A DNA stretch of 64,000 nucleotides from positions 124,001-188,000 of the forward strand of contig BDIU01000039.1 of NCBI GenBank assembly GCA_002118135.1, in the 5' to 3' direction. The notes below the pieces were generated by a model that worked only from the letters and a program-made list of their open reading frames with translations, did not search any database and was not told the DNA's origin. This document shows, piece after piece, positions 1 through 64,000 of this stretch (position 1 is the first letter of the stretch; each line of letters starts with the position of its first letter). A program made the position numbers and the translations under genes. Source of the stretch: Trebouxia sp. TZW2008. Its lineage: Eukaryota > Chlorophyta > Trebouxiophyceae > Trebouxiales > Trebouxiaceae.

Positions 1-572
1 TCCAGAACAGGAAGGGATGTCAGACAGGATGTCTTACTGTCTGTGCGTGCAGACCAGAGGCAACGGATTCTGTGGTCCCTCCTTGCCATAGTCTCTGAAA
101 TGAAGGCAGCACTTGGCAGCAATGGACAGCAGTCATTGCTGCAGATGCTCCTGCTTTGTAACTTCCCACCAGCAGCAGCTGTCATACATGTCAAGACACA
201 AGCGTGTCAAGCTTGAGCTATTTGAGTTGTGTAGGTGACAAAGAGGACATGTGGGCAGAAGGACTGTTTCATCTGCTTCATGCATGCTTTTCTGATGCAC
301 AAGATAAGTCACTGATATTCAAATGTATCAGTTTGAAAGAAAATGCTCTTGAAAAGCATCGATATCAATTCAAAACAGTTGAGCAAGTTGACAACTTATG
401 TGATTGCGGGTGAAAAGGTGGACAGATAGGCAGAAGGACTGGTCCAGCAGCTGCATGTACACTGGTCACAATTCAGGCATAGCTGACTCTCTTTGAAATT
501 GGGATAAAGTATGTGTGCACAGATGTTTTTGCTCTGTTTTCCACAGCATCATTTGCTAGTGATCTGATGCAG
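1..572 (+). other. Upstream intron/unplaced sequence of the POLH gene
   Basis: Most of this stretch appears to be intron in front of the first recognisable POLH exon. An open frame runs from base 1 to a stop at 211-213. I cannot match its product to any part of polymerase eta, so I leave it unassigned. Bases 234-300 and about 410-465 hold two degenerate copies of the exon start at 573 (see the repeat entry). Confidence 0.4.
234..465 (+). repeat. Two decayed upstream echoes of the POLH exon start
   Basis: Starts at 234 and about 410 align with the exon start at 573, sharing GTGA.AA..GTGGAC.. followed by the GGCAGAAGGACTG core. The first copy keeps an acceptor AG. In the second the AG has become GG and the frame has a stop. 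Spacings are about 176 and 163 bp. They read as tandem duplications of an exon edge that have since decayed. Confidence 0.7.
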
Positions 573-1977
573 GTGAAGAAGTGGACAATTGGGCAGAAGG
601 ACTGGTCCATCTGCTCCATGTTCCTAGCGGTCTCCAACTTTGCAGCAGCCCCCACCGGCTCCTCCCTCATCACCAAATTCTTCAAACAGCCCCCAGCCCC
701 AGTGCCCACAGCCCCAGTGCAAGTGCCTCAGTCACATCAGCCCTCAACCGCAGCGCAATGGCCCCAGTCACAACAGCCCTCAGCACCATTGCAAGAGGTG
801 CAGTTACAGCAGGTGTCATCAGTGTCAGTAGAACATGCACAGCCTGGTGCACAGTCCTCATCCTCAATGCAACCACTGCAGTCACAACAGGGCCAGCCAG
901 TGTCAGCAGAGCATGCACAGCATAGGCAACAGTCATTGGTGTCAGTGCAAGCACCCCAATCACAGCAGATGCTGTCACTCTCAGGAGAACATGCACGGCA
1001 TGAGCAACAGTCCTTAGCCTCAGTGCAAGAACTGCAGTCACAGGTGCTGCCAGTATCAGATCAGCATGCACAACTTGCGCAACAGTCGTTGGCCACAGTA
1101 CAAGCATCAGAACAGCGCTCAGACCCAGGTGGACAGTTGACCCCTGGAAAACAGTCAAACCTGGTTCAGGTGGCTTTGCACAGTACAGGACACCAGTCAG
1201 CCAGTGAAGAGGCACAGCACCGAAATGCAGATGCTGGGGAGCAGCCAGTGGCAAGCGCAGGGCCAGTGCAAAGTCCAGATGAGTTGCAGCAACAGCCGCT
1301 GGGCATACATGAAGGCTTTGCAGCAGATGTTCAGCAAGATGATGCTGCTGTGCAGCAAGTTTCAGCTGCTGCTGTGGGCTTAGGCTCAAGGGTTGTTGAG
1401 GGGCAGCATAAATTGCCCCATGCTGCCGGCAAACGCCCTTTGGATCAGGATGTTAGCAAAGAACGTGACCACAGAAAGCGGCCAAACAGGTAATAGCCTG
1501 TCCCATGCAGCATTGCGGCTGAAAGTCTGCGTGCTGCCTGATTTGTGTAGGATGTGGATGGGCAATTGGCTTCGCTGCTCAGGCATAATTCGGTGAGCAT
1601 GCAGCTGTGTCTGCAAGTGACGCATTTCCACCTTGGGCAGCATATGCACAGCAGTTTCCAAGGTCCAAAGCTGTTTTTGATCTGTGCCCTGTAGAGATCC
1701 TGCAGTTGTCCATGTTCATGGATGCAGACAGTTTTGACTCACTGCGCTCAATTTGTTGTGCAGGACGCTGAGCACGGGAGTGGATGCGCCTCTGTATGGA
1801 GACTACTCAAATGATACTATAGATCAGAATGTCTTGAATGAGTTGCCAGCTAGCATGCAAAGAGAAATTCGAATTAGTATGATGGCACAACGGTCTGCTC
1901 GCAGCAGACATTTGACCAAAAGCGCTCAGCCTGCTGGCAGAGCAGGCATGCACAAATTTTTCAAACCACGAACTTGA
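573..1977 (+). CDS. POLH: DNA polymerase eta (Y-family), C-terminal part, 5' truncated by window
   Basis: Translesion DNA polymerase of the nucleus that bypasses UV photoproducts. Two exons are visible, 573-1489 and 1764-1977, joined in phase 2 by a GT-AG intron; they give 376 residues. The first about 35 residues match the end of the little-finger domain of eta polymerases: a W-S pair, then the core M-F-L, then S-S-L-I-T-K-F-F. The middle is Gln-rich and holds about four repeats of 25 residues (bases 812-1110) built around EHAQ..QQSL. The second exon carries a ubiquitin-binding motif (DQNVLNELPASMQREI, with the key LP pair) and ends in a PIP-like box (MHKFF), the C-terminal layout of plant polymerase eta. 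The catalytic palm and fingers lie upstream of the window. REV1 also has UBMs, but the terminal PIP-like box and the little-finger match favour POLH. Confidence 0.78.
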
Positions 1978-2592
1978 TGTATGTTTTAGGCTCTCGGGCT
2001 GCCTCTTGAGACAGAGGCTCCCGTCATGACGCCTAAACGTGTAGACTTTTCTTTTAGGCTCCCGTTTTGACGCCTAACGGGGTAGACTCTATTCCCCCCC
2101 TTGTAGGCTTCTGGTTGACTTGGATGGCATTTGTTTGCTCTTTATGCATCTGATCATGCCATGATGGGCGCAAATGCCTGTAGATGTATCAGACTTGACG
2201 TTGTTTCATCAGCTGAGCAATGCAGCAGGTGTCAATGCTGTCATCTATGCACAAACACCTTTGTAACACTATCATGGTCATCTAGTTACTTTAGCGCACG
2301 TCAGGACATGTTGCGTCTCAGCTTGCAGATCAGAGTCATGTCATATTGTTGACAAGCAGTGTATTGCTATTGTTCATGAAAGCGAAATATACTGCCAGTG
2401 TTTAGTGGAAATCAGATTGTCAGGCAAAAGCAGATTGAACCTGATGATGGTGCGCAGAGTTGCAGCTAGACACATCCAGTCTATCAAACTGCGTGAGACA
2501 CATCTTCATTACAGGTTATGTCATGGCAGAACCCATTTGATGAATGCGTTGCCATCCTGACAAAGACAGCGATTGCACCAAACCATGTCCAA
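1978..2592. other. Convergent intergenic region POLH / Tudor-like gene
   Basis: Holds the 3' flanks of two convergent genes. A TGTAA word, the usual green-algal poly(A) signal, sits at 2262-2266 about 285 bases past the POLH stop. Two copies of a 44-bp dispersed repeat follow the stop closely. I see no further gene. Confidence 0.5.
2010..2089 (+). repeat. Two tandem copies of a 44-bp dispersed repeat
   Basis: Copy one spans 2010-2053 and copy two 2055-2089. Both share the core AGGCTCCCGT..TGACGCCTAA followed by GTAGACT. A third copy lies on the other strand at 13927-13970. The origin is unknown; no terminal structure identifies a transposon. Confidence 0.75.
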
Positions 2593-5500
2593 TCAGATCT
2601 CAATGTCCTGTGACATGTTCCAAAGCTGCCCTGCTGTGTCATGACTCAAATTGGAGCTGTGAAGGTCTGAGTCGAGCTGAGGGATCTCAAATGCATCACA
2701 GTCATCCATATTGCTGTGGCGGGAAACACTGTGACTCAGCTCCCACTCATCAAGATCCTCAACCTCAAAAGCATGAGTCAGTGCGAAGCCCTCTGTGAAG
2801 GCAGCCACAGAGTTCAGGAAACTAGGGGCGTCATTGGACACATGACACAGGCTGACTACACCATTAGGCAGCTGCACTGAGGCTGCGCAACTGCCTGAGA
2901 AGTCACTACTGTTACTGCTGTCAGCTGTCACTGCAGCTGCGTAAGAGGTTGTCTGTCTAGGCATCATGCTGCTGCTACTGTTTGGCATGCCAGTGGTGAT
3001 AGTGCACTGGTGATTAGCCATAGAGGGGCCAGATGGATTGACTGTAGCCTGAGGAAACAGACTTCTCACATTGCCTGGCAAGGGCAGGGGCTGCTGGGGA
3101 AACCCCTGAGGCAGGGGCTGCTGGGGAAAGCCCTTAGTCAGGGGCTGCTTGGGAAAGCCGTGAGGCAAGGGCTGCTGGGCAAAGCCCTGACTGAAGGGCA
3201 AAGCAGAAGGGGCTGCTGGCTTGGCCACTGGCGACTCAAACCCCAAGGGCAGATGAGCAGTCTGACTGGCTGTCAAGGGCTTCATAGGGATGCTTCTGAT
3301 TTTCTTGGTCTGCCCTTCAGGTGCAGCCTCCTTGGCAAGCTGTGTGAAGGTGCCCCGGGGCTGCACGAAGCGGCCCTGGCCTGAGGGCTGCTGCTGGGAC
3401 TGGCTGCTGTTAATCATCGTTGGGGATGCAAAGGGGTTGCTGAGGGCAGGTGCGGCAGCAGCCCAAAACCCTAGAGCAGTTGTAGCACCAGCCCCAGACG
3501 CTAGGGGCGACATGAAACCTAGGCGGGAGGGCTTGGGGCCCTTGCTGACAGAGGCAACAGCCCTGCCAGGGGGCGACAGAAATCCTAAGCCGCCAGGGCT
3601 GGCCTGCTTTAAGGCGCCTGGGGATGCCCTGCCCTGGGGTCCTGCCTTCAGGCAGCTCATGGGACCATAGGGTTTGAGGTCAGCCCTAGCTGTGGGGGTG
3701 GGCCTGTGAGCAGTGGCTAGCAACTGATCTGCCCAGTCAGCTGTGGCAGCATCCATTGGGGTGTGGGGTTGAACCAAGGGGGCAGGAAGAAGAGCACTGG
3801 GGGTGGGCATGATGGACTGTGGGGCTGAGGGGGGACGGAAGGGGGGTGATGACAGCAAATCCAGGGGGCAAATCTCCAGCTTTGGTTTCTTGGTAGGGGG
3901 CTCCAAAATGTCCAAATCCTCCTGTATCAGACATCAAGGTTCACAACTTCAAGACGTGGTGCATGTTTCATGTTGCACAAATGAACCAGGATTTCAGCAG
4001 CAAGCCATGGTGCATTTTGTGCATTATTTGAGTGATTGCAAGTCTGTACAATGCTGAGCATGCAGCCTCAGCAGATGCAATACAGCAGTAGCAGAAAAAG
4101 GCGTTGTTGCTTGATGTCAATGGCGCCTTTCCAACAGTCGGTGACAATTTGATCATGTCACCATGGCAAGGTCAGTAGTGGTAGTTGCATGCATGGCACA
4201 CTGGAGCAATCTTGATGTCTAGCCTACAACTGCTTGAACGCATTTTCCATCTGTTTAGTCAATCAATACGTACTACAGCGCAATAATTGCCAACAAAAAT
4301 GGAAAGAGTGATGATGATAGACACCAATCCTTGCATTCTGACCGCAGTGGTACCCCTGAGTATGGACAATTGGGGATAAAGAAATTTTCTTGTCAATGAA
4401 TGCATTTGTTATGAAAAGGTCATAATGTACCTTGAGGTCAGGGACAGCTTGCTGGCAGACCTCTTCATAGGACAGCAGGCTCTGCAGCTCCTCATCAGGC
4501 TCCTGACTGCTGGCCAAGTACCTCGCCTCTGCAGTTGCGCTGCCTGCAAAAGCAACAACAAAGTCTGTTCACTTCCTTCTGCAGGTCAATGGATGGGCAG
4601 AAGATGTAAATCAATACATGCAGGCTCTGCAGCTCCTCGTCAGGCTGTTGGCTGATGGCCAAATACCTGTCCTCTGCTGTTGCACTTCCTACAGAACAGC
4701 ATCCAAAATCATTCAAGGTTGGGTACAAATTGTATATATGCAATTTTCATATGCTGCACAGAATGTGTCAAGGTCTTGATCAGGCTCCTGGCCAAGTACC
4801 TTACCTCTGTTGCGTTGCTTTCCGCACATGCAGTGCAGTTGTTTTGTTACACGTTGCAGAGAAAGTGGCTGGTGTACAAGAGTTCTTACAGACTCAGGAT
4901 GCGGCCACATGTAGACAAATCGCCTGTTGCATCCTGCGTGGTTCCAAAGATATTGTGAGCATGATGCTACATGTCACGCTTACAGACTCAGCAAACACCA
5001 ACAGCCATTTATGAGAAGATTGCGGACAATAAACAGCAGTGACACTCTGCATTGACATGCACCAGCAGGCATGCTAGATGCTTTTGAGGCATCTTGAGCA
5101 ACATTTGGTGACTCACCAGCTGCAAATGCAACTTCTGATGATGAGCAAGAGGGGTCATCAGGCTGGAACCATCCCAGACTCAGCAAGCATACAAAATGAC
5201 TTGGCATTTTCGAGGCAATCTTGTTGACTCACCAGCCGCAGCCAATTCCATGCCAATTGTGATGATGGATTCCACGGGTAGTCAGGCTGAGCCCATCCAA
5301 GACTTAGCAGGTATACATACCGACTTGACATTTCCAGGCAATTCTGATGACTCACCAGCTGCAGATGCAACTTCTGATGATGGGCATGAGGGGTAATCAG
5401 GCTGGACCCATCCAAGACTCAGCAGGCTGTCCCTCAGCACCTCACTTGTTGTCAGCTCCTCTGTGTCTCCATTCTCGTACAGCACATTTATATGGATTGC

Positions 5501-8420
5501 ATCCACCTGCAACTCACCAACAAAAGTTTTTCAAGATTTTTGGAGACGTAAGAATAAGTCTGTCGGCAATTTTGCAAGCTGACAATGAAAGTCTTCTCAT
5601 CATCCTGTCGTATAGCACATTCACATGGGTTGCGTCAACCTGCAAATCAACAGTCAATGTCCTTTCGAAATCTTCTCGTACAGCACATTCACATGACTTG
5701 CGTCAACCTGCAAGCATCATGCAGATGAATTCAAGATGTCAAGTGACAACAGATGCCTTGCAGTGCAGCACATTTTCAGGTGCACATCTTAAGGCAAACT
5801 GCAGGATGCTCTGTCTCAGACCATGTTGTGTCTCAATATCATTTCAGCTTTGCGCTGCATGCATGACATGCAAGATTGTGTTGGCAAATGCTGACATGCA
5901 ATGGCCTTTTTTGAGGATGAGAGTGTCCTTTCCTTTTGCTGATGGGGTACTGCATGCTTTGTGGCATGCATTTGCAATGCTGCTCATCTTTACATGTCAA
6001 CATCGAGCCAAATAAAGAAACGGCCACCTATGCCCCACACCAAACTGCGTTTTGGCCAAAAAAAAAGGGTAAAACAGCCTGACCTCAATGATTTCTGCAG
6101 GCCACCACTGCCCGTCATCCTGCCACAGCATTTCCACCTCCAGGCCCTTCATGGCGTGCCTGTGTTTCAGGTCACTCTTCTTCATCACCATGCGCTCTAA
6201 ACCCTGCTGGTAGGTGGGGACCCCAAAAAGGCTGCAGTCCCTGAAACCTGGCTCTGATGTTCTCGTGAGCTCTGATGCCCTTGTGAGATACGTCCTCTTC
6301 TCACATGGCAGCTCATCAGCAAAGAGGTTGGTGACCCTAGCACCTGTGAGCACTGCCTGTAGCATACACCACATTTCTTGTCATGACGACTGCTTTGGTC
6401 ATCAAGACAACTGTCCTTGTGTCAAAGTGTCTTTACTCAGAGGGCCCAGTGCAGTCAGAGTGAATTGATTGAATCCCAACTGCCTTGTCCTTGCATCAAG
6501 AATGTCCTTGTAATGGGTGTTCTTATAAAGGGAGTTACTGTACAATGGGCGATGATTAACCTCAATGCAGCTCCAGCAAGAAATTGCACCAACCTGGCAA
6601 TGCCTGAAACTGTGGGGCGGTGTGCTCTGACCAGCATGACAGCAATACAGACTGTAAAAAAGGCTCATTGTGTCGTAGCATACAGCAGGCAAGCTTCAAC
6701 AGCAGCACTGGCAGGGGGGCTTCACAACGCAATACCTTTGGTGCAGCAGGACGTGCTGGCGTGAGGGAGCCTGAAGTTGTAGAGCTAGCGTTTGCCCTTG
6801 TGCTGCGACTTGTTCTGTCATTGCCAGCAGTCCTCTCACTTGAAGCCCGCAACTCTCTCTCGGCCTGCCTCTCTGCTTGGATGGCAGAGGCTTCTGCCTG
6901 CAGAACAATTGGCAGTGTTGAGATGCAGGAACCAAAACGATTGCAGGCTGTGGAGCACTGTGAGGCGACAAGCATATCTGCGCGACCTCAAGCTTGACAG
7001 GCTACAACAACCCTTGCGAGCAGTGATCACTGACAACTGATCGAGCACTTAAGCAGTCTCTGCCACACCGCATGGGGTCCGTCTGTGCATACGTTTAGGT
7101 AGAGCCCACCTTGCTGACACCCTTGACACGCCCGGTGGTCCAGATAGCAGCAGCTGCGTCCCGGGCACGGATTTGGACCGCTCGGCCTCGGCCACCCTCA
7201 GCAGGCTCAGCAAGCTTGCGTCGCAGCCAGGCTCCATTGTTGGAAGCCGTGTGATGGCCAAACACGTCCAAGAAGATTGCCCGCAGGCGGGGAACGCCAA
7301 GGGTAGAGAGCCACCTGCAAAGATGTGCAGCTTGACAGAACACAAAGCTGAAGCTATTTGACCAAAGCAACACATGCCATAATCATGCGCAAGGTTGCCT
7401 GCAATGGTGATGCATGTCAAACTGAATACAAGAATGAGCACACATGATGTCAGACAGCTTGAAGATGCTTACTTGATGTCAAGGCCTCCTCCACCAACCC
7501 ATGTCACAGGTCTTCCATTCTGCTTCCTTTGCTCATCATCAAGCAATGTTGATCCAGACGCTTCACTGCTACCACTCCTCTGCACATTGCACAGCCTGTC
7601 AGTTGTCTGCAGGCAACACTGTCGAGTATGCACAAGAAAAACTCTACTGCAAGACACATCCATGAAAGACCCACTTGTCACTTGGCATCTCCAGTACAGC
7701 ATTGCAATGGCAATGTGAAGATGGTGGCAAGCAATGCAGCGATTGAGCATAGAAACTGCTTACAGTGAAGGACTCTGACAATCTGGGTGGTGAGCGCTGC
7801 CGCCTTTTGCTACCAGCATTGCTAGGCACCCTGCAGCACAGAGAAACAACTGACTTGGTCGTATGCATTTCTGCTGTTGAGCTACGCGTTGTTCACCATA
7901 AAGCAATATGAGAACACAATATCAATAGAGTGACGCTGTGAAGTACCATCAGACTGCAGAAGTTTTTGTATGAGCTCAAAACAGGCACCGACACAGCTTT
8001 GCCAGGTAGACAAGAGTGGTACAAAGGCTGTTCTCACAACTGACCAAAAGCAGATGGTTTATCGTTGCAGACAAATTTACCTGCTTTCTGGGCTTGATCG
8101 ATCGCTGTCGCTGCAAGTACGAATTGTCTTGACCAGACTCTGCAGAAACACGGCATGTTAACGAGACGGACCGAAGTTGACCGCCATCGCAAGACCAGCA
8201 ATGTCAAATCAGCAACAGTACACGTGCAGTGACCAAACAACGACTCTGGCGGGTTGAATGCACGAAGCGAACGCATATGAACGTTGGTCTGTTCAACTTG
8301 CTTGTCAATCGCAACTGACTCTGAGGTGCTAGCCAACATGCAGTGCACAGCAGAAGCTTCAAAGCTCACCGAGGTCCTCGCAGACTTGTCCTTGCCGAAC
8401 TGGCCGCTAGAGGAATACAT
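2593..8420 (-). CDS. Tudor-like domain chromatin protein, function unknown
   Basis: Ten exons give 847 residues with every phase agreeing: 8370-8420, 8081-8139, 7764-7830, 7473-7606, 7110-7314, 6736-6897, 6084-6356, 5356-5506, 4431-4543, 2593-3921. The N-terminus is Ser-rich with a basic KRRQRSPP stretch that could be a nuclear signal. A conserved block in exon 5 (LGVPRLRAIFLDVFG, then SNN.AWLRRKL) resembles a motif of plant/algal nuclear proteins that I cannot name. Exons 7-8 form a Tudor-like fold around residues 295-340: GLEVEMLWQDDGQWWPAEI, then VLYENGDTEEL. Such domains bind methylated histone tails. The last exon is 442 codons of low-complexity sequence with a KKPK motif and GFPQQPLP repeats. 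Echoes flank exons 8 and 9. Exon structure is secure; the function is inferred from the domain alone. Confidence 0.75.
4326..4396 (+). mobile_element. pogo/Tigger-like MITE, copy A (fragment)
   Basis: Shares the central block GCATTCTGAC.GCAGTGG..CCTCTGAGTA..GACA with copies B-D, but both ends are lost. It lies in intron 9 of the Tudor-like gene. Confidence 0.6.
4600..4823 (-). repeat. Two upstream echoes of Tudor-gene exon 9
   Basis: The exon 9 start is at 4543. Copies start at 4688 (acceptor intact; reading runs through a PDEELQSL match and then diverges) and near 4823 (acceptor destroyed, PDQDLD remnant). Periods are 145 and about 135 bp. Confidence 0.75.
5112..5310 (-). repeat. Two downstream echoes of Tudor-gene exon 8 donor end
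   Basis: The exon 8 3' end and its GTGAGT donor (5350-5356) recur at about 5228 and 5112, spaced 123 and 116 bp. Both copies keep a GTGAGT donor and the encoded core LSLGW.QPD with small indels. Confidence 0.75.
5608..5715 (-). repeat. Two upstream echoes of Tudor-gene exon 8 acceptor end
   Basis: The acceptor plus the first about 30 bases of exon 8 (start 5506; encodes VDAIHINVLYEN) recur with starts at 5639 and 5707. These encode near matches such as VDATHVNVLY. Both keep the CAG acceptor. Confidence 0.7.
6359..6543 (-). mobile_element. pogo/Tigger-like MITE, copy B
   Basis: Read on the minus strand it starts TA-CAGTAACTCCCTTTAT and carries the AAGAACAC..ATT..AAGGACA and GCA.TCTGACTGCA blocks of the family. 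Its far end runs up to the exon 7 acceptor of the Tudor-like gene (6357-6362), so the insertion may supply part of that splice site. Confidence 0.65.
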
Positions 8421-9623: not shown

Positions 9624-9692
9624 ACTCTTTGTCAATTGCAATATGCTCAAACTATCTCTACTGAGTCAGGTGCCTTCTGCACTTGCTCAGAT

Positions 9693-10116: not shown

Positions 10117-13100
10117 CTATTTATGCTCGTATCCAATGCTCTCAAAGACACAGCTGTGATACTTTGAGAACATACGCTCTCGCCACTCAAACACAGCATC
10201 CTCACTGTTCAACAGCTTGACAGGAGATACAGCTCTAGCCCACTGCAAGCACCAGCAACAGTTCTTGAATGTGCTGTGTGCTTTATCTGCTGATACAGAC
10301 AGATAGGGGATGCTGTTGAGCACGAGGGCATTGACCCACGGCTTCCTTTCATTTTGCTGCAGACTCGCTGCGGGTTTCATGAGCTGAGTGACGAAACTGG
10401 CAAGGATATGTGCAACAGGCAAAGCATCTGTCTTTGTGGTCTTGATACAATGGACATGGGATTGTCATTTGTTTAGAGCAGCAGTCGCTGTCATTGTAAT
10501 ATGCATGCCTGAAATTCACTGTGATCAGCAATATACGTCCTGCTAGAACGGCACATACTACTTTTCTTCCTACAGCACTGGTATCCTGTGGACTTTCACA
10601 ACCTGACGATGCAATAATGACAATGTTGACGGCACATGTGCATTGGTTCTTGTTGGGCAAGGCTGGGGCTTACCGCAAAAACCCCTGCCGCGCAGAAGTC
10701 TGCAAGATTAGGGTTGGGGCCTCCCAGAAAAGGTTGTTGAGAAAGCACCTTCCTCATTGGCGTCAGAGACTGCTGAAATTTTTTGATAGCTTCTGGTGTT
10801 GGCTCTTTTGTAGCCTGCAATGCATGCAAGTAAGTCACTTCATGAGCTTATGCACACACGTCTAGAAGCACTAGATAGCTTAGAGAATTCCCTTGTCGCG
10901 TTCAAAATTGCTTATAACTGTCATGAACTCGTCTCTAGGCAGCAACTGCTGCAACACACTGTTTCACTTTGAAGCAGAAACACAATGGTCATGCATGCGG
11001 TCAGTGGCAATCTTTTGCAAATGTGCCATGTTCAGCAAACATGCACAAGCTGCGTAAAGACCATGGTTATGCATGCAACAGCAGGCGTTCATCTGCATAA
11101 GCACTACAATCAACAGGCATGCACAAGCTGCACCATGGTCACGCACGCATCAGCTGGCTTTCAACTGCACAAACAACATGATCAGCAGGCGTACACAAGC
11201 TGCACTCACACCACGATCATGCATGTAATGGCTGGCTTTGGCTTGCTCAATCACTGTAACTAGCAGGCGTGCACAGACCGCACAAATGGCATGATCATCA
11301 TACATGCAAACAGCTGGCATTCAGTTGCAGAAGCATCGTTGATCAGCAGGCGTGCAGAAGCTGCACTTACACCATGATCATGCATGCAATGACTGGCTTT
11401 TGTTTGCAGGCACACCATATTCAGCAGGCGGACACAGGCTGCACAAATGTCATTGGCGTGCATGCTACAATTGTCTTTGATCTGCTTGATCAGTCACAAG
11501 CGCCAGAGACACATGCGTGAGTAGGGCAGCAAATTCCAAACAACTTGCCTCTGAGAACTTGCACCCAAGCAGCTTCTCCATTTTCTCAATGAAATATGCC
11601 TTGTCTTTCTCAGCTGACACGTCCAGCGCTCCTTGAAGGACTAAAAAGTATGATGCATGCAACCACTGGCTTTCATCAGCTTGATCAATTGCCTGCTTCA
11701 AAACTGCATGCATGAGTAGGGCAACAGAGACTTGCCTCTTGGAATTTGCACTGAAGCAGCTTCTCCATTTTCTCAGTGAAATACTGCTTGTCTTTCTCAG
11801 CAGACACGTCCAAAGCTCCTTGAAGGATCAAAGGTATCAATGCGGAAAATACACTTGCTAACAGCCACTCATAGATGAACTTGACGCCTGCTTGCTCTGC
11901 ATGACAAAACAAGAACACATGATCATCAGGATGACTGATAAGGGCAATACGGAGCATGGCCCCAGGATTGAATGTCAAAGGAGGGAGACAAAATCCGTGA
12001 GGCAGCCACGCATAGATGAAATTGACACCAGCTTGCCCTGCATAAGGTGGCAAGAACAAGTGATCATGACTGAGAAGGGCTGTACATAGCATGGCCCCAG
12101 GGCTGGTTGTCAAAACCCCTGAGGAGGAACAAACCCTAAGGCAGCCACTCATAGATGAACTTGACACCAGCTTGCCCTGCATAAGGTAGCAAGAACAAAC
12201 GCTCATGACTGAGAAGGGCTGTACATAGCATGGCCCCAGGGCTAGTTTTCCAAACCCCCTGAGGAGGAACAAAACCTAAGGCAGCCACTCATAGCTGAAC
12301 TTGACGCTTGCTTACTCTGCACAAGGAGATAAGAACACATGATCATCAGAATGACTGCTGAGGGCAGCAAAGAGCACAGCTCCAGGGCTGGTTGTCAAGC
12401 CCCCTGAGGAAGCAAAGCTTCTAAGCTAGCATCGCGCAAACAGACTATGGGTGCAAAATGGCTTCTGACAGAGAATCCTATTGTGATACCCAGTGTGCAC
12501 AGGCATTTCTTTTTCCTGCTTTGTCGTGCTGAAACAAGCATCGCAAGCCAGAAGCACACAGTACGATGATTCCTGCATGCTGACTTTGCATTTTCTCACA
12601 TGAGACATAATGACAGGAAAGTCTTTGGTTGTTCATGCAAATCAGCAAGGCACAGAGAGATGATCAAGGGTTCTGTGCATTGCTGAGATAAGACGCTTGG
12701 TCAGAAGATGTTAGCCTTCTCAATTGTGCAACAAAGGCATCAAAGTCATGAAGAAACTTTGTGCTGAACGCATTCTGTAACAAGATGAGATAGCATGGCC
12801 AGAAGGTTGCCGATACGCTAACAACAAAAAACCATGCAAAACTACTCAGTTCAAAGATATCGTGAGAAATGCTTAATTGTTTCAATTTATGGAGCGCACC
12901 TTGTATGCTTTCTGTCAAGGAAGGTGTGTCAGGGTAAGTCTTGTCCAGGTACTCCGCAATCTTCCAGGAGTCATGCACCACTGTTTCGCCATCTACCAGA
13001 ACTGGGACCTGCACTGGGCGGGGTTTTGTCGAGTCCGACGCTAGTCGACGCTTGAACGCCTTGAGCGCTCTTGACGCAGAGAGCGAAGTGAGTGCCTGCA

Positions 13101-48100: not shown

Positions 48101-51100
48101 CTACAGCAGGTTGAGCGTGACATACCCCTCGGCTGCTGCTATGGACTACAACAAATAGCATCTCAAGAGCTGATACTGCATGCAGAATGACTGTCTGTGG
48201 TGGCTGCTCAAGACATAGTCCCTGAGCCCATGGACCATCCCTTTGGAATCGTGATTGAGGAGGACTCCATTTGACCGCAACAGCAGACACAGGAAAGTAT
48301 ATTTGCCCTAATGCAGCTCCAAATCCATTGCAACAGCAAACAACAAGGCTGAGAAGCCGCCGCTGAAGCTATCCCATGCAGACAGCTGCAGACTCCAGTA
48401 GCCTGACAGTCCTGTCTTCTGTCATAGCGCTACGCTTGCAGCTTGGACAGGCACAGTTGCAAACTATTGCCATGGCCAATTGTTGCGATTAGCAAACTAC
48501 ACTCATGCCAGCAGCAGCCAACCGCTGCTGTTTTGTCTGCTACAGAGAAGAATGGGCATGAAATTTGCCTGCTATGCCCTGCTTGCAAGGCTATGAGCTG
48601 CCAAAGCACATGCATGCAATGCCACAGGCTAGGCTTGAGCCGACTGTATGGGCCTCAAGTTGATAATGATAACAATGAGTCCTGACATCACATAACTTGG
48701 CTCAGATGCTAGGTTGTGTGGCTCAAGTCAACACAGGCGTGGCAGAGTTTTGGTAGGCTGATACACCTCAAACTCTTGCAGAGAAGACAGCCTTGTCTTA
48801 CGATGGTGTATGCACTGCAGCTGTCCATGCATCCTCTGAATTTGAACGGTGAATGGTCTGCTTGAGCTTATGCACATTGGGCACAACTAACGCATCTCCA
48901 CGGTAGTACAGCCCTCTATGGAAGCCCAGCCATGCTGTATTGCTGCCTTTTGCAAAGCACGGGTCTGTTGTATAAACGTGAATGGTTTGACTGAGCAGAT
49001 GCTGATCTGCTTCAGCAGCTGCAGCATTTTCAGCCTCAATGGCAGCCTCATGCTCAGCTGCATCCAGGGTCTCATGCAACCTACCATGCTCAGCTTCATG
49101 TAGGGTTCCATAGAAGCTATTGTGCTCAGCTTCATGTAGGGTTTCATAGAAGCTACACAATGTACAACTAATGTACTGGTGGCCAGAAATGCCCGTGGAC
49201 ATCAAGGAGCATGTCAAAGGCTGCAAGACATGCCAGCAGAAAAAGGCTCTGACACAGGCGCAAGGGCAACCCATGCAGTTTCCAGACCATGTCTACAAAT
49301 AGTCTAGCCATGTCTGTAGCAGTGGATTCACTTTTGCATAGCAGCAAAGTGAGTCATTTTGGTGAGCTTGTCAACCAGTACAGCTGTGTGACCTTTCTTT
49401 GTCTTTGGCAGGCTGACTATGCAGCAATAATGCCTATCAAGAAAGCACTGGCAACGCGCCTTTCTACCTGAGGTTTGGCAGGCATTCAAGATTGCCCACA
49501 GACTGCAATTTGGCCAGAAAGCCTAGCAAAGATTCTTCTGCTACTGACAACATTGGCAACATACAGAAAATCATAAACAAAGCAAAGAAGTGTCTGCAAG
49601 CTGCGCAACAGCGCCAAAAGCGGTATGCTGACAAGCATAGCACTGAACTTCTTCCCTGCAATCCTGTCCAGTATGCCAAGCTGATTAGCACAACGAACAG
49701 GATTGCAGGACTAAGAAGAAGATCTTGAAGGCTGGCATACAGTGTCACCCAATGTAAGAGCATGGCCCTTGCTAATAGCTTGCAATGCCCGACATTTGAC
49801 ACATTGTGTACCAACCCCTTTCTTACGACAGGGCAGACAAGAACAGCTGCAGAGGCACTGCTGCATGATATGTGTAGACCAGCCTTGTTTCGCATAATCA
49901 AAACAGGAAACTGGAGTGCCGATGCCAAACTCAGACTTGCCCCACATAACATGCTGCATTGAAGACTCACATGTCACAGCTTATGCAGGTTGTGTTGTCA
50001 TAAAAAACATTTGCACGCTTTGCACCTGAATGGAAATGTGCACGCTTTGCACACCAATGGAGGAAATGGCGCCTACCCTGAGGAGTAGACGCAGGTTTGC
50101 TGCCAGGGTCGGCTGAGCTGAGGGGGCCGAAGAAAGGGTGGCGAGCTAGCTCTGGCATGGACAAGCCAGGCATCTGCTGCCTCTCTCGCCGCCGCTTCAG
50201 TCTAGGAACAGCTGATGCCTGGTGCTGCTCCTGCTGCTGCTGAGACCTATCCGGTCCAGCAGCTGATGGCCTCTGTGATGCGGCATAGGCAGTGGCTGCT
50301 GCGCCTGTTGTGGGAAGCTGAGAGGGCAGCTGCTGTGCAGGCTGTGAGGGCAGCTGTGTCACGAGCTGGGCAGGATGCTGCTGCGGTACTGATGCCTGTA
50401 CTGTGTCATACTGTGCCGAGATGTGTGTTGGGTTGCTAGCAGCATTGTGTGGCACACCCACTTGGGCAACAGCTGACTGTGATGCATGTTGAGCTGACGC
50501 TGTATTGCTCTGAGGCACAGAATGTAGCACAGACCCAGCTGGGGTTGGAAGATGGGTGTCTGGAGGGTGGGAGGGCGCAGCGTCCTGATGTGTTTGCGTC
50601 TGAAGCTGCTGCAACCTGAGTGCATAGCGCTGCTGCTGCTGCTTGAGAGCATGTATTCGCAGCTCCAGCCAATGCGTCTGCCATTGTGTGCTGGATGCTG
50701 GCTGTGATTGCTTGCCATCAAGGGGTAACAATGTGCTGGCTGATGGGTGCGAGGCTATACCCCAGGACTCTGAAACCACGGGCGGATGCGAGGAACTGAG
50801 CTTGGGAGCGCTGCCGACCTCTGTGTCTGAATCTTCCAGATCTGTGTCTGCAATATGCAAACTTAGCTTGAGCACAGGTTCATGCACAGCAACCTGATTC
50901 AATGATTCAAAAGTTTGCAACTGCTCTGCCAATACGCCAAGATTCACAACAAATTTGGATGCAGTGTGGTGAAACGGCACAAGAGACAGGCACGTGGCAT
51001 ACTACTCCAGCTGGCAACATAGGATGTAATGCAGTGTAGGTGGTGAAGACAGCATGTATCTAAATGATGCTACACTCTGAATGTTGCATCAGCATACTGA

Positions 51101-52749: not shown

Positions 52750-55700
52750 TTAGCTGGTTTTGCCAACATCAATTGCAAGTTTATCAGAATGCTGTTGCTG
52801 CTGCAAAGTTTGCAACACAAAGCTGAGGGCGCGTTGCTGCACCTCTGGTTTATCAAACAGCTGCAAGGAGGTTCTGTACCTTTTCAGCAGATTCACCTGG
52901 GCCTTGTCCAAGCGACCACTGTCGCCGCAGTTACCTGCAGTTCCAATCAGTCATTTTGAAGAAAACATTTGGATGTGTCATTCCTGTGCTTGTGTTGTCC
53001 CAACTGCACGTAACTGCTGGAAGATAAGTCAAAATTGGTGCTGTGCCATGCTACATAAACCACAAATGACAAATGAACACGCTTTTTGCAAAGGCTTTCA
53101 GGTGTTGGACAATCCCTGCATAGCATTCAACTCAAGTGGAGATGGTGTACAAACCCTTTGTGTGACAGGTTCAATAATGAGCTGAAACCAGCCTGAACAA
53201 GCTCTTCCAGAACGCAATCTCTTAGCATGTCATCCAGAAGAGAAAGAAGAGCTATTCGGCCTAGGATGCCGGCGCAAAATTGCATAGTTTGAACCAATGT
53301 GCAACGATGTGGGGAGGTGCAATAGTGAACTTTACCTTCATGTGGGGGTTGCAGCAGTGAGCTGGAAATGGTCTCGACAAGCTCTTCTTTTGGCTTTGTA
53401 GCATCCAACCACAGATACATGGGATCATCCCGGAACCAAGTCATCTGGCGCTTGTTCAACTGACGTGAGGCCTGCTGAATGTCCTTTACCATCTGCACCT
53501 ACAATCAGCAAGTGTATCTTCACGATCAGGACAAACACAAAAGAGTTTATGACGTCAGCTTTCGCAATGGGTGTTCCTGTTCCCCTGGACAATGATGCAT
53601 TCTCACTTCGCTTAAACCTGTTTGATACATGCTGCTGCCACAGCGCTGCCAAGGCTTTGGTACATGCTGCTGCCACAGCGCAGCCAAGGTGTTTGATGTA
53701 TGCTGCTGCCACAGCGCTTTGAATGTGTTTAATATATGCTGCTACCACAGCGCAGCCAAGGTGTTTGATGTATGCTGCTGCCACAGCGCTTTGAATGTGT
53801 TTAATATATGCTGCTACCACAGCGCTGCCAAGGTGTTTGATATATGCTGCTGCCACAGCGCTGCCAAATTTTTATCATGCAGGAAGTCACTGATGACACT
53901 GGCTTTGTGTGCTTGGCAGGTAGAAGCGCTGCAAGAAATGATTAAGAGCTATGCAAACAGAAGGCGTGCAAGCTGTGAGTTCTTATGTGCTTGCCACCTC
54001 ATAGGTACCGTCAAAAGCGGTGTAGTCAACACCAGAGTGGCTAACAGCACTTTCAAGGGGTTCAGGGTGATGCTGACGGCATCATCTGGCAATGCATCAC
54101 AGTCATCACTGGCCATATCTTCATGGCTCAAGCCCTCGTCAGTCAGGCTATGGTGATGTTGACAATTGCCAAGCACATGCGAACTGCTTAAAATTTTGTT
54201 TGGGGTGATCTGGGGGTCTTGCCTAGCAAATTAGGCAAGTTGTGTTGTCAGTGAGTGGAGTACTTACCACTTGGGTTGGGTTGATGTCCTGAGGATGTGT
54301 GTGCCAGTGCTGCAAAGCCGCCAGGGCTTGGCGATACCCTATTGCCCTGCTAGCGCAGTTGCTGTCTGGCTTGATGCCTTGGTCTAGCAACCACTGCGCC
54401 TCCTACACAGCACAACAGAGGTCATGTCATCCTACTAACATGTATGACATTGGCTGCTTAGCACAGTTGCCGTCTTGAGGGTGTGCGTGCCACTGCCTGA
54501 GAGCTGTCAGGGCTTGGCGGTACCCTATCGCCCTACTAGCGCAGTTGCTGTCTGGCTTAATACCCTGGTCTGGCAACCACTGCGCTTCCTGCACAAAATG
54601 GAAAGTATCAGCACTTAGTTGTTTGACTTGGTGCTTGAACATGTGTAGCTGGTTTTGCTTGGTGCAGTGGCTTCCTGCCTTGATACCCTGGTCCAGTAAC
54701 CACTGCGCCCCCTATACAGCAAGCCAGCCTTCAGCATCAGGTCAGTAACTACAAACTGCCAGTAGCCGGGCACAGCTGCTGAAAGGGTTGCTATCTGGCG
54801 TGATGGACTGGTTTAATAAAACCTGCGCCCCGTATAAAGCAGTAAACACTTTGCAGGTGAAATCACTTTTTGAAGACAAGAAGGTGGTGATAGTTTGAAT
54901 GCAGGCGCTGCTTAGCTTGGTGCCATGGTCCTGTGACCAATGCGTTTCTTACACAGCAGGTACAGTTGGACAGTGCGAATCATCTGTGTAAGATTTGACT
55001 TTGTTACATTAGCCTGCACAACTACACAACTGCTTTCCACATTGTCAATGTCACTTTCATCTCTGTTGCTTGTGCTCGCCCACCTCCACAACTGCTTTGC
55101 ACATTGTGAATGTCACTGTCATCTTTTTCTTGCTTGTGCTCACGCACCTACACATCTGCCTTCAACACTGTCAGTATCGTTGGCATTGTCTGTTTCAGGG
55201 TCATCACACACACTCAGCTGGGCTGACCTGGCTGTTAGCACAAACAGCCTTTTGATGTCCCAAGACATGAACAGCCGTCAATCACATGCCTCAGCAAACA
55301 GCAGTGCATCTACACCTCAACCCAGCTGAGAGCATCCTGGGCTGCGGTGTGCTGTTGGCTGTGCTGCACACACGCACCTTCCAAATCATCATTATGCAGG
55401 TAAGACTTCACGTATTCACCATGACCGCAAGCAAATATTCAACCTATTTGTTAGATACTGGACATTGTTACACAGTCAGAGAACATGCGTGCTGCATCCT
55501 GACGTAGCTGACTTGGAGGACACTGCTTCTGCTCACATCTGCAAGCCAGCAATGCTGCTGCTGGTCACCAGCACTAATGCACAAGCAGTGGCTTCCAGGC
55601 AGAATGTCATATCATACCAGAATCAGATGATGTTGTTTGTCTCACCTGAAGCAAGCCCTTGTCAACCATCTGCTCCACTCTCAGGTCTATACGCTCAAAG

Positions 55701-59585: not shown

Positions 59586-62500
59586 ATGCAAAGCTTGTCG
59601 TCAACCCGCATCTCCTCGACGCATGCCTTTTCTGTGCGCCCAGTGAAGCATTCGGCGAACATCACGAGGCCACGTCCGCAGTCTTGTTGCAATTTTCGAA
59701 CGCTACGGGCATCTTGCACTCAACAGTCCGAGCGCGTGGTGCCACAAGAACAGGTGAGATGGCGCTGCGCCATCAGCACCTGATGGCCTCGACCATCTGA
59801 CCCACCCTCATTGCAGGCACTACAACCGGGAAAGCGAGCTTTGCTAGCCAGTTTGGCTGCCATTGCAGTCTTGCCAATCCAAGCCAGTGAAGTCTTGGCA
59901 GCAAGCAAAACAGTGAGCACAAAGCCGTTGATCTGTGCTATCAGCTTCTCACTGCAAGAGTAGTTTGGCGACGCTCTTGCAGTGTTACAGCTGCCAAGAT
60001 CATATTGACAATGCATTGCAGGTGTTTGTGGCCGGAGCGACTGGTAACACTGGCAAGCGCGTAGTTCAGCAGTTGTCTGGCAAAGGCTTTAAAGTCTTGG
60101 CTGGCACACGGGTAAATCTGCTGAACCAGAATAATCATCAACAAGGACACAAACTCAGTGCAAGCTTTTGCATCATGAAAAGTCAGGCTGCACTATGTCA
60201 ACATGATGTCAGACAACTTGCAGCCCTCAAGCCTGCTTGCTGTCACAATAGAACTATCAAAGCAAATCCAAGCCTTGTTGGTGACCTGATGAAATGCCAC
60301 AAGTAGGGTCCAACTGCTCAACTTGCACAAAGCGTATGTCAAAGAGAAGCATTGACTGATTACCTAGCCATGCCTGTTTGCAGGACCCCAAGAAGGCAGA
60401 GGGGTTGGGCTGGGGTGGGGGTGTGAAGCTGGTTAGCGCAGATGTCACATCAAGTCCCACGTGAGTGGTCTCATTGTCTCATGCTGGTGCTGTGAGCAAC
60501 ATGCCATGCAATCTACAAAAAGCCAGGGGCTATTTCTGAGAAATTGAGCTGCAAATAGCAGTTTTGTTCAAACATCGACAGCTGTTATGCTCACGCATGG
60601 TGTCATTTGGCATGACATGCATTGCAACATGCAAACAACCTCAAAGTCATGGCACAGATCAAAGCCCATCACATGGGGTGACAGAATGTCCTTTGAGGTT
60701 TGCTCTCTGTTGTTCTTCTGCACCACCTCTTTGACTATGATCACCGTGTCATCTGACATATCACTGCCTTCACGCAGAGAGCTGGCAGCAGCAATGAAAG
60801 GGGCTGCTGCCGTCATCTGCACCATTGGCATCCAGTGTCTATGTCTTGCCCAAAATCATTTTCTTCTCCACCACTGTTTCTTGTTGTGACAAGCTATATC
60901 ACCATCCAATGTGTTACGGTGTTGAATTGCATTCCTGCATCGCAGGGAGCTGGCAGCAGCAATGAAGGGGGCTGATGCAGTCATCTGTGCCATTGGGTCC
61001 AGCGGCTTCAACCCCAAGGGCCCTCAAACAGTTGACTATGAGGTCAGGCCCTTCTGTTTTTGCTGCAGTTGCCCTTGCTCAGGCGTATTGCCACTGACAC
61101 TTGCAACGTCTGCAATAGTTGCAGTCAACTTTGCCATCATTTCATGTGGATTCAACTGCAAGGGCCACCAAACATTGATGATGATGTTGGGCCTCGTTGT
61201 CCTCCTTAAGTTTATTGCTTTAGGCTCAGAATGGCCATCAAAGGTATTTGCATCAGTTGCACAAGGTGCTGCAATGTGTTGATATGTCAATTTGGCAGGC
61301 CAGTACACATTTGTACAGCAGCAATAGCTACAGCGTTTGCAGCTTCCGCATTGTCATGCTGGAGCCTATATGTAAGCAAAAGTTGCGCTCAGTGACAAAA
61401 GCTCACAGCATCATCATGTTACATTTGATGGATGTTGCTGAAAAGGCAGTGAAGAAGTCTGCAGTGATGATGAGCTTGTCGTCAAATGACAACACAATGC
61501 ACCAATGCTGGTTGTCTCAGGCTGTACTCTAACCAAGGCTCACTTACATCTAGTCGTCCTTACATCATGCAGGGTACACTGCATTTGGTAGATGCTGCTA
61601 AGAAGGCAGGCGTGAAGAAGTTTGTGCTGATGTCCAGCTTGTTGACCAATGGTAGGGAGGCAGGACAGGGCACCAACCCCAATTTTATTGTGCTGAACCT
61701 GTTTGGGGGAGTACTTGACCAGAAACTCAAGGTTTGCTGCACTATTGCATTGCATGTATTCGCACTGTTGTGTTGCATGTAACCGGATGCAATTGTCTCC
61801 TTGAGTCCTTGACACCAAGTCAAGGTACGTTCTGTTGCTGAGTGAAGTTCAACAGGGACAATTGATCTGATTCTCATGCAATCAACCTTGGCAATGGTCT
61901 GGAAGCACCCAGTCTGTCGCAACAGATTCTATTGCAGCTGCAGGCATTGCCACATGTGCTGCACGATTGTAGCAGAATGCAGTCTGCTTTTGTATTCAAG
62001 CGCTCACAGAAGGTGTTCAAAAATCAGTCAGCTTGAAACCTATGACTTCTGCAAATTGATGTGTTGTGCAAGTTGTTTGCGTCAGCTGATTGCTCAGCCA
62101 TATCCTGCATGGTCAACGCTGCTTCTGCTGGCATGCTGTGCATCACACCTGGGCGCCTGTTGTTGATTTGACGGCTGTGCTCGCTATTTTTGAGCATATG
62201 TGTTTCATGATGAATGGGCAGCAATTGCGCACCAGCAGTCAGAGGGATGACATTCGGCCAGGAGTGATAGGATGAACATGTGGACTGATTTTGGCCATTT
62301 CAGTGATTGATCACAAGCAACAAGGGGGATGAGAAGCAGCAGAGAGTAGCTGCACGTACATACTGACTATGTCTAGTCAGCACAGCAATGGTATGCAAGC
62401 AACGAAAACATGACAAACAGCAGCCGACGATATGACTCATTGGTGACTGCCTTTGGTCAGTTCATCAGAACACAGTCAACAGGAGAACGGCCAGACAGCA

Positions 62501-63420
62501 ATAGTTGATGTTACACATGTGCTGGCTGCCTTTGATCAGTACCACAGCAACTGCAAAGAAGCAAAGAAGCAAAGAAGGCAAGACAATCAGCAAACAATTG
62601 CCACATGTCAACGTGTGGCTCTGTGCATGCAGGCAGAGAAATATTTGAGGAGCTCAGGCTTGGACTGGACCATTGTCAGGTGAGACACTGATGCAATTGT
62701 CAAGTCAATTCTGTGCACTTCTGCATCCAATAGTGTTGCCACTGTGGTTTCTTTTCTGGCAAATCCTGCCAAAGTACCAGATGTGGTTTCCCCAGCAGAT
62801 ATGCGTACTGAGCAGGGCAGTAGCCTGATGTTGCACTCAGACGATGACAAGTACAATTTGTGTTTTCATCTGTAGGCCTGGCGGACTCAGCAATGCAACA
62901 CCAGCGGAAGTTGGCAATCTGTACTTGAGCAAGGAAGACACCCTGTTTGCTGGCAAGGAGAGCCCTGGCAGATCTGTGTCTAGGGATTCGGTGAGTCCAT
63001 CACGTCCCCCTGACAGTCATTTCTCTCAGGTTGCAAATGCAGCTATGGTTGCGTACACACATTGCAGTGTTGCGAGCCTAGGTTAAACTGTGAGGCATTG
63101 TAACCCTTTGCCAGCCGATGCATGCACCGCTGAGCCCAATCATGGCATCAATTAGCCTGCCCACGACGCTGCAAGATTTTCAACATAATGCCATATGACT
63201 GCTGATGCATGCCATCAAGCAGCGCGTTAGTCTGATCACCTCTTGTGCCCGCTCAGCTGCAGTATGTGCACAAATGCTAAGGGCCTGATGTCTGGTGCAG
63301 GTGGCACAGGTTCTTGTAGAGTCAGTGCTACAGTCAGGTGCAAGTAACAAAGTGGTTGAAATAGTCGCAGGCAAACAAGTGGAACAGCTCTCGCCAGACA
63401 AATGGTTTGCCAACCTGTAG
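59586..63420 (+). CDS. Plastid atypical SDR (NAD(P)-binding, NmrA/At5g02240-like)
   Basis: Nine exons give 322 residues: 59586-59753, 59817-59912, 60022-60111, 60384-60460, 60946-61042, 61573-61731, 62633-62679, 62876-62990, 63301-63420. Exon 1 is a Ser/Arg-rich plastid transit peptide. Exon 2 adds a hydrophobic ALLASLAAIAVLPIQASEVL stretch, which could be a thylakoid signal or anchor. The dinucleotide site is VFVAGATGNTGKRVV (about 89-103), followed by AAAMKGADAVICAIGSSGFN, KKFVLMSSLLTN and LDWTIVRPGGL. The classical Tyr-x3-Lys pair is missing, as in atypical SDRs such as At5g02240 and the Tic62 N-terminus. Substrate unknown. Exons 5 and 6 have echoes. Confidence 0.9.
60778..60835 (+). repeat. 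Echo of SDR exon 5 acceptor end
   Basis: Start at 60778, 168 bp before exon 5 (60946), with acceptor CACGCAG. It encodes ELAAAMKGAAAVICTIG against ELAAAMKGADAVICAIG. Confidence 0.88.
61125..61180 (+). repeat. Echo of SDR exon 5 donor end
   Basis: GGATTCAACTGCAAGGGCC and the following CAAACA.TGA..ATGA.GTTGGGCC repeat the exon 5 end in decayed form, about 140 bp downstream. Confidence 0.7.
61415..61480 (+). repeat. Echo of SDR exon 6 acceptor end
   Basis: Encodes LHLMDVAEKAVKKSAVMMSL against LHLVDAAKKAGVKKFVLMSS, about 155 bp upstream of exon 6. The acceptor is lost. Confidence 0.82.
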
Positions 63421-64000
63421 GCATAGTGTCTTGCGCGTTGATATGGCTCTGATTTCCGAGACAATTCACAGAAACTGTTCAGACTGTCTGTTACTAAGCT
63501 GTAAGTTACAGCTGCTGAGTTCATGTAGCTCAAGGTTCAATTTTCTGAGGGGATCTGCATGCATCTAGCCTTGCTCACAGTGAGAGTACGAGAAGATGTC
63601 TGTACTTCTGATTTACCAGCATATGCCAAAACGAGTTTATGTCGATTTTATCACAAGAATCTTTGCATGCTCAAGCACATGTCTCTACGGCTGCATATGC
63701 AGCAGATTCATACCTCAGGTCATTTTGCTGTCGACACATTGACACCTTTTAAAATTTGCACAATCGCTTGCATGATCTGCAACCACACTGCATTGTAGCT
63801 GCTGTGAGCAAAAGTGATACAGCAATTAGGGTAACAGGGTGTTACAAAACTGGACCAGCAGGGGGCGCGTCGGCTCAACAGTGGACTGCTGACAAGCATG
63901 CACCAGAACTGCATTGTTTCTGTGAAACAGCTATGACTTAGCAGCGCACATTAACTAAAATGCAATCAAATCAGTAAACAAACGATTCATAGACTTGTTA
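63421..64000. other. 3' flank of the SDR gene
   Basis: A TGTAA poly(A)-type word lies near 63502, about 80 bases past the stop. I see no further gene before the window ends. Confidence 0.45.

Follow-up and report, generated by a model that had tools for sequence, protein, structure and literature searches.

Partial exon copies in introns of a Trebouxia genome as probable relics of short tandem DNA duplications

INTRODUCTION

Introns in a window of 64,000 nucleotides (the whole stretch of DNA that was analyzed) from the lichen-type green alga Trebouxia sp. TZW2008 contain sequences that resemble the ends of neighboring exons. A sequence-only reading had counted about 40 such copies, assigned them to nine named genes, and attributed them to an ongoing process aimed at exon-intron borders. 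Are the copies real, how did they arise, and are exons their target?

We analyzed the window together with 11 further pieces of the same genome (assembly of 68.5 Mb in 527 contigs), 248 kb in total, by self-BLAST. Repeats were called near or far according to a boundary of 1.5 kb between copies, and first-order Markov random sequence of matching composition served as the null. Six genes with 48 exons were curated. A search of the window found neither an Rfam family at gathering score nor a tRNA.

RESULTS

Intronic exon copies are real and local. Self-BLAST of the 248 kb yielded 263 direct repeats at most 1.5 kb apart and 15 farther apart, and 4 near and 12 far inverted repeats; random sequence gave no direct repeats, near or far, and no near inverted ones. 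The clusters number 111 and cover 13% of the bases. In the window, partial exon copies in introns are confirmed: 25 exons have one, and 48 alignments merge into 40 intervals, in agreement with the earlier count. Curated exons (14 of the 48) matched introns of their own gene 29 times, all on the plus strand. The same 48 exons gave no match to introns of the other five genes, nor to 132 kb of non-exon sequence from other contigs. The comparison of own with unrelated introns that the sequence-only reading had suggested as a check thus gave 29 against 0 in the six curated genes. All four regions tested occur at a single place in the genome, in a search that scored best candidates only.

In the gene for type II NADH dehydrogenase (NDH2), pieces of an orthologous protein (82% identical) aligned by tblastn to a complete exon chain and to extra intronic copies. 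The single exon chain covers the orthologue with no need of the extra copies, and two of the extra hits contain stops. The NDH2 features are as follows.

20708..20906, minus strand: real exon, by its match to the orthologous protein
20957..21047, minus strand: upstream of exon 20708-20906, a copy of its 5′ end with the acceptor, 88% identical
20282..20347, minus strand: downstream of exon 20708-20906, a copy of its 3′ end, 88%
20441..20497, minus strand: another copy from the 3′ part of exon 20708-20906, decayed further (74%)
21569..21736, minus strand: real exon, by orthologue match
21839..22189, minus strand: two tandem copies, unit 179 bp, 83-93%, of intron and the 5′ end of exon 21569-21736; the nearer copy contains stops
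22645..22722, minus strand: downstream of exon 22845-22994, a copy of its 3′ end, 88%
23561..23756, minus strand: two tandem copies, unit ~134 bp, of intron and the 3′ end of exon 23855-23977
24614..24864, minus strand: the 3′ end of exon 24985-25132 copied three times, at 24614-24650, 24715-24751, and 24835-24864
26036..26485, minus strand: copies that combine the 5′ half of exon 25702-25916 with upstream intron, two with indels
26657..27079, minus strand: the 3′ end of exon 27230-27375 copied three times, at 26657-26704, 26900-26963, and 27051-27079
27445..27500, minus strand: upstream of exon 27230-27375, a copy of its 5′ end, 80%

Protein pieces of the MFS gene (MFS_5 / molybdate-anion transporter type) likewise aligned by tblastn to an exon chain and to extra intronic copies. 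Features of this and other genes in the window are listed below.

33671..33863, plus strand: MFS, real exon
33892..34067, plus strand: copy of the 3′ end of MFS exon 33671-33863, downstream, 87%
34344..34468, plus strand: nearly whole copy of MFS exon 34492-34613, upstream, 81%
34796..34901, plus strand: copy of the 5′ end of MFS exon 34943-35124, upstream, 88%
11459..11651, minus strand: copy of the 3′ end of GST exon 11736-11896 plus intron, downstream, 77%
12003..12410, minus strand: three tandem copies of the 5′ end of GST exon 11736-11896 plus intron, unit ~140 bp, upstream
54280..54708, minus strand: IPT, duplicates of the region of exon 54440-54588 (54280-54409, 54664-54708)
60773..60828, plus strand: copy of the 5′ end of atypical SDR exon 60946-61042, upstream, 89%
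61120..61193, plus strand: copy of the 3′ end of atypical SDR exon 60946-61042, downstream, 73%
230..458, plus strand: two copies of the 5′ end of predicted exon 573-1128 of the gene labeled POLH (230-282, 405-458)
4620..4696, minus strand: 5′-end copy of predicted exon 4431-4543 in the gene labeled Tudor-like
5105..5713, minus strand: array that surrounds predicted exon 5325-5506 and holds copies of its two ends
47309..47415, minus strand: bromodomain gene, 5′-end copy of predicted exon 47060-47254
47955..48123, minus strand: bromodomain gene, 5′-end copy of predicted exon 47715-47871
37250..37668, minus strand: succinyl-CoA synthetase alpha gene (36321-40202), tandem duplication that lies in an intron and involves no exon
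41359..41517, plus strand: Trx gene, intron-only duplication (41359-41429 / 41446-41517)

Eight of the nine genes named by the earlier reader carry exon copies; Trx drops out because the only duplication found there is intronic. In POLH and Tudor-like the copies are of predicted exons only, and the names, behind which a Pfam search found no hit, remain the earlier reader's. None of the nine exons of the succinyl-CoA synthetase alpha gene has a copy, the gene containing one intron-intron pair only.

The copies have the anatomy of tandem duplications. Copies of 5′ exon ends lie upstream of the exon and copies of 3′ ends downstream in 119 of 129 edge-crossing cases (P = 8e-25). The 10 violations leave 77 of 84 exon ends free of any exception, and in the curated genes the rule was kept in 29 of 30 cases. 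By the same rule, the downstream copy in IPT may be the real exon. The intron flank was mostly copied along, as the earlier reading had noted for splice site and adjoining intron: 87 of the 129 copies have a flank similarity above the 95th percentile for unrelated flanks, and 42 do not. Flank homology was detectable in 15 of 30 curated copies (our own count from listed percentiles), and in 14 of the 15 others the exon part is 80 to 93% identical. Because the direction rule holds in most cases and intron flank mostly accompanies the exon piece, the anatomy is that of tandem duplication at the DNA level. The smallest offset is below 180 bp in 99 of the 111 clusters and at most 180 in 55 of 64 single-pair clusters; as far as detectable, the duplicated stretches mostly measure ~60 to 180 bp. 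Junctions overlap by at least 4 bp in 5 of 12 near-complete pairs, compared with 7.6% in simulations (P = 0.001), an estimate of microhomology based on 12 of the 64 single-pair clusters.

We consider it very probable that ordinary tandem duplications of short DNA stretches, head to tail and in many parts of the genome, left these copies behind as relics. Short units, mostly of 60 to 180 bp, would be duplicated head to tail at many sites. Where a unit crosses an exon-intron border, one copy would stay joined to the exon and keep working; the other would be left behind in the intron, where this redundant piece of exon, its own splice site included, would decay as non-coding DNA. Selection would hold the working copy, leaving exon-crossing pairs recognizable for longer than intron-intron pairs, and the process may look aimed at exons because of this prolonged recognizability. 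Formation probably involves microhomology-mediated repair or template switching.

Exon borders need not be preferred. A mutational process favoring duplication across exon-intron borders, for instance through transcription- or splicing-linked breaks or R-loops at exon edges, would also place copies in introns, and we judge it unlikely. In its favor, clusters touch an exon more often than under random placement (94 of 111 versus 71.7 expected), as do pairs with exactly one exon copy (137 of 241 versus 89.7) and the six curated genes (33 of 50 versus 19.1). For these labels, the shorter partner of each pair was removed and curated genes overrode predictions. A first classification had been inflated because the gene finder took relics for exons and was replaced; under that annotation, the share of sequence in duplications was 6.4% between genes and 13.4% in introns, which also speaks for a preference. 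Against it, intron-only and exon-internal duplications are common: 54 of the 263 pairs touch no predicted exon and 42 lie wholly within one exon; both introns and intergenic DNA contain duplications of their own. Short head-to-tail duplications were recovered in 9 of the 11 pieces outside the window, but their supposed aim at exon-intron borders was not supported. Furthermore, the excess is weaker at identities of at least 85% (25 of 51 versus ~18.6 expected) than at 80 to 85% (43 of 62 versus 23.9), although it is again 1.3-fold at 60 to 75% (30 of 64 versus 23.0).

We simulated random duplication with the real exon copy changing slowly and the spare copy freely. Uniform ages yielded an exon share of 0.45 to 0.49, too low for the observed 0.64. 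Ages skewed toward old events gave 0.49 to 0.80 depending on indel settings, reproducing the observed share with no preference at all; the age and indel settings that reached it were chosen after the uniform-age result, and no single setting fitted identity spread, aligned fraction, and exon share at once. Random placement combined with slower loss of exon-derived matches can thus suffice in the model for the exon excess, given old-skewed ages. The detectability argument is hence our conditional explanation of the excess, and exon targeting was dropped as a necessity under that age distribution only. A modest true border preference, of about 1.4-fold, may exist.

The spare copies decay like non-coding DNA, on average. 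Pair identities range from 65 to 100%, in keeping with the widely differing stages of decay described earlier. The claim that the process is ongoing fared less well: only 7 of the 263 pairs are at least 93% identical, and 11% of 160 reach 90%, where a steady duplication rate predicts 29 to 62% in simulations. If the copies were working alternative exon ends or cassette exons under selection (tandem alternative splice sites), coding constraint should be visible, and some observations look that way. Among the copies, 60 of 69 acceptors and 38 of 45 donors retain the splice dinucleotide, a little more than the hand-estimated expectation of ~76%; this count used 118 of the 129 edge-crossing copies, leaving out direction-rule violators and duplicates. 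A few copies are coding-like, such as 20957-21047 in NDH2, with 1/0/9 differences at codon positions 1/2/3. In the curated genes, third positions hold a share of 0.537 of the differences, above neutral (29 alignments, leaving out exons 29347-29510 and 27230-27375 and the succinyl-CoA synthetase gene), and we counted 16 offsets divisible by three among 30. In the set of 95 exons, however, the third-position share is 0.465 (95% interval, 0.432 to 0.497), near the hand-estimated neutral expectation of ~0.44 to 0.45. The offset of the best pair is divisible by three in just 30 of the 95, which therefore argues against frame selection. On the values of this larger set, constrained coding copies were dropped as a general explanation. 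The curated copies moreover hold 13 indel columns, and the stops in NDH2 copies and the sufficiency of its single exon chain also weigh against this reading, which we regard as very unlikely.

Introners are dispersed families across genes. The copies here are local, the 48 curated exons matching no other gene or locus and all four tested regions being single-place. The likeness to introners or introner-like elements (cf. PMC9860276) is that sequence is repeated within introns of an alga. RNA-mediated or transposon-like copying of exon pieces in the manner of such elements could account for alignments that often stop within a few bases of the splice site, where identity drops. It is highly improbable and was rejected on direction and flank evidence, the copies being nearly always direct, local, on the side predicted by tandem duplication (a rule that largely refutes this origin), and often flanked by intron.

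An assembly or haplotype artifact, to which the 527 contigs might point, is scarcely credible because 256 of the 263 pairs are less than 93% identical, whereas assembly errors are expected to be near-identical; some copies also carry stops or indels, and the pattern recurs on 9 of 11 other sampled contigs.

DISCUSSION

Tandem duplication across an intron-exon border has already been described for a potato RdRp gene, according to the accessible part of that report (PMC4974935). As there, the duplications in Trebouxia occur within genes, in units that cross one intron-exon border and include the parental splice site. Unlike there, as far as that text goes, the duplicate is usually a decaying relic within an existing intron, with no new intron demonstrated, and the events are dense (111 clusters in 248 kb) and small (units mostly <180 bp). 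The Exonize catalogue likewise includes exon pieces, some degenerate, within introns of their own gene; the accessible sections report partial, inter-boundary, and intronic events in significantly more genes than full exon duplications, and generally fewer events in lower eukaryotes (PMC12343006). The literature searched, largely openly accessible, contained no description of such a pattern in green algae or Trebouxia.

Each step of the proposed tandem duplication is familiar in kind. What stands out is the density, which may help introns to grow. If it holds genome-wide, introns would be a fossil record of tandem duplication, in which exon-crossing events could be dated against a conserved template and oriented by the direction rule. 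From the relics one could then estimate the rate and size limit of duplication, follow indel decay, and learn what becomes of decoy splice sites. They are also a warning for gene predictors, which may take decayed copies for exons: the predictor placed the two copies in two different exons for 78 of the 263 pairs, and some copies predicted as exons are clearly relics, judging from NDH2.

More doubtful is a distinctive mutational engine of this lineage, with a sharp cap near 180 bp, short microhomology, a pace sufficient for a leading part in intron growth, and perhaps a moderate preference for borders. Such an engine would seed introns with ready-made partial exons and splice sites. At ~180 bp, the size limit would correspond to about one nucleosome repeat or one Okazaki fragment, a possible reason for it.

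Short-range direct repeats are frequent in the window and on most contigs sampled

Self-comparison of the window at a strict cut-off yielded 52 direct repeats separated by less than 1 kb, none at 1 to 5 kb and 3 beyond, with 3 inverted repeats overall. At a looser cut-off, we analyzed 248 kb, made up of the window and 11 pieces from 11 further contigs of the assembly (68.5 Mb, 527 contigs), which were chosen by contig number, i.e., not at random. This sample contained 263 direct repeats at 1.5 kb or less and 15 farther apart, and 4 near and 12 far inverted repeats. First-order Markov random sequence gave no repeats in each of three counts taken. Such repeats were found in 9 of the 11 other pieces, the two without them measuring 10 kb and 3.9 kb. 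The pattern is real and present on most contigs sampled. Among the more similar arrays of the window is a 36/72-bp tandem array at 53619-53867, with approximately 7 units that are ~92% identical at a 71-bp offset, the offset being the distance between copies.

Exons were called with a self-training hidden Markov gene finder, complemented by hand curation of six window genes; exons outside these six are predictions of the gene finder. The exons of NDH2 and MFS were located by tblastn with close orthologues, their ends following the predictor wherever it agreed, and those of GST with a bacterial homologue and the predictor. For the succinyl-CoA synthetase alpha gene, support comes from strongly similar proteins of solved structure. 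The SDR and IPT exons are predictor based, with weaker structural homologues and tblastn queries that were the window's own translations, and for IPT it is uncertain which copy is the real exon. Because the best relatives of NDH2 (Trebouxia sp. C0010, 82% identity) and of MFS (one unnamed protein and Trebouxia sp. C0009, 81%, with a patched query sequence) point that way, the DNA probably comes from Trebouxia or a near relative, a lichen alga. Three NDH2-like proteins from two Trebouxia strains and Pleodorina (P0001, P0087 and P0062) bear the database name "tubulin alpha 1," which looks like a naming error. The self-trained splice model, built by the predictor from the window and the 11 pieces, has 19% GC donors (GC-AG introns) and a strong TGCAG|G acceptor.

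Introns carry copies of their own gene's exons

The 48 curated exons gave 29 matches, all on the plus strand and involving 14 exons, to introns of their own gene, versus none to introns of the other five genes and none to 132 kb of non-exon sequence from other contigs. This bears out the sequence-only reading, which had described intronic copies of neighboring exon ends. Over the whole window, 25 exons have intronic copies, in 40 intervals. Of the nine genes for which such copies had been reported, eight do contain them; the duplication in the remaining one, the Trx gene, lies within an intron. NDH2 has copies of 7 of its 11 exons, and succinyl-CoA synthetase alpha (36321-40202) of none of its 9. 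Compared with a homologue of solved structure, the predicted protein of the latter lacks ~13 residues, which may be encoded by a micro-exon that the predictor missed.

A tandem duplication over an exon 3' end and the next intron would necessarily leave the spare copy downstream, and one over an exon 5' end would leave it upstream. Among copies crossing exactly one exon edge, 119 of 129 (72 + 47) lie on the expected side and 10 do not (P = 8e-25, a value that treats non-independent copies of one exon as separate). Counted by exon end, 77 of 84 are free of violations. In the curated genes the proportion is 29/30, the sole exception being IPT, where the real exon, going by this direction rule, would be the downstream copy. 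Two of the 10 violations come from a predicted exon in a long degenerate CAG/CAA tract (16833-17181) and are probably due to low complexity. Besides these, 18 copies span an entire exon and 13 lie inside one.

In 87 of 129 cases (15 of 30 in curated genes), the intron sequence beyond the splice site aligns between copy and original with a score above the 95th percentile for unrelated flanks. At least there, the material copied was thus DNA rather than spliced RNA. Ungapped identity over 118 copies is mostly 0.7 to 0.9 in the exon. It is 0.79 to 0.96 across five bases of the acceptor and 0.89 and 0.66 at the two bases of the donor, and drops to ~0.4 to 0.7 in the intron outside the splice site. 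As the splice dinucleotides are intact in 60/69 acceptors and 38/45 donors of the copies, there is no sign in these sites that decoys have been purged.

The copies are best explained by short tandem duplication followed by decay of the redundant copy. That an assembly artefact produced them is unlikely, since they are too divergent. Duplications of this kind are already known: PMC4974935 describes one spanning an intron-exon border in potato, citing Gao and Lynch 2009 and Rogers 1989, and PMC3443670 presents tandem genomic duplication as a mechanism of intron gain that may be prevalent. For the lichen alga Asterochloris, PMC6652019 reports 9 introns per gene, and the available main text uses neither "tandem" nor "exon"; our literature search found no description of the exon-end pattern in green algae. 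Of interest here, in one genome, are the density of the copies, their apparent size limit and their use as a record of intron growth.

Exon excess may not require targeting

By predicted exons, 89 of the 263 pairs have one copy in an exon, 42 lie inside one exon, 54 touch none and 78 have their copies in two different exons, some of which are relics called as exons. Once such relics are excluded from the exons, 94 of 111 clusters of pairs touch an exon, against 71.7 expected from random placement. Among 241 pairs of at least 40 bp, exactly one copy is exonic in 137 (89.7 expected), both in 35 (63.7) and neither in 69 (87.6); for 50 pairs in curated genes the one/two/no counts are 33/0/17 versus 19.1/6.2/24.8.

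A modest preference of the duplications for exons is possible. Besides the cluster excess, it is favored by simulations of random duplications with the exon copy under constraint (four indel settings by five age distributions), in which uniform ages give an exon share, E1/(E1+none), of 0.45 to 0.49, below the observed 0.64. Against it, old-skewed ages, tried after uniform ages failed, give 0.52 to 0.58 with ages weighted by t, 0.58 to 0.67 by t squared, 0.49 to 0.62 with ages above 0.08 and 0.53 to 0.80 above 0.12, the second and the last of these ranges including the observed value. These settings also bring the young-pair and aligned fractions nearer the data, and no setting matched all features. 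On our reading of the simulations, targeting of exons would be unnecessary to explain the exon share.

Unit size, junctions and age

The smallest offset per cluster has a median of 126 bp and is below 180 bp in 99 of 111 clusters in the 248 kb, units below ~60 bp being hidden from detection; offsets in single-pair clusters are at most 180 bp in 55 of 64. The steep drop above ~180 bp is unlikely to be explained by detection, which should favor longer units. This size is near the nucleosome repeat length. Of 12 near-complete pairs, 7 have an alignment extending past the unit by at least 2 bp, 5 by at least 4 bp and 3 by at least 6 bp, exceeding simulations without microhomology (18.5%, 7.6% and 3.2%). 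In this small sample, the excess suggests that microhomology-mediated repair or template switching was involved. Median intron length is 560 with a duplication (n = 95) and 278 without (n = 291), although long introns are also bigger targets.

The duplication process had been called ongoing, a description that the pair identities do not establish: 216 of 263 pairs are 70 to 90% identical, 7 reach at least 93%, and 11% of 160 reach at least 90%, against 29 to 62% expected under a steady process, depending on indel setting. The data are equally compatible with a fall in duplication rate, rapid deletion of young copies or their collapse in the assembly.

Across 95 exons, differences between copy and exon occur at rates of 0.146, 0.120 and 0.231 at codon positions 1, 2 and 3. 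The third-position share is 0.465 (bootstrap, 0.432 to 0.497), with ~0.44 to 0.45 expected, by hand estimate, for an unconstrained copy against a constrained exon. The best-pair offset is divisible by three in 30 of 95 exons. Counter to unconstrained decay, curated genes alone give a higher share, 0.537, and some individual copies look coding, for example 20957-21047 (1/0/9 differences at positions 1/2/3).
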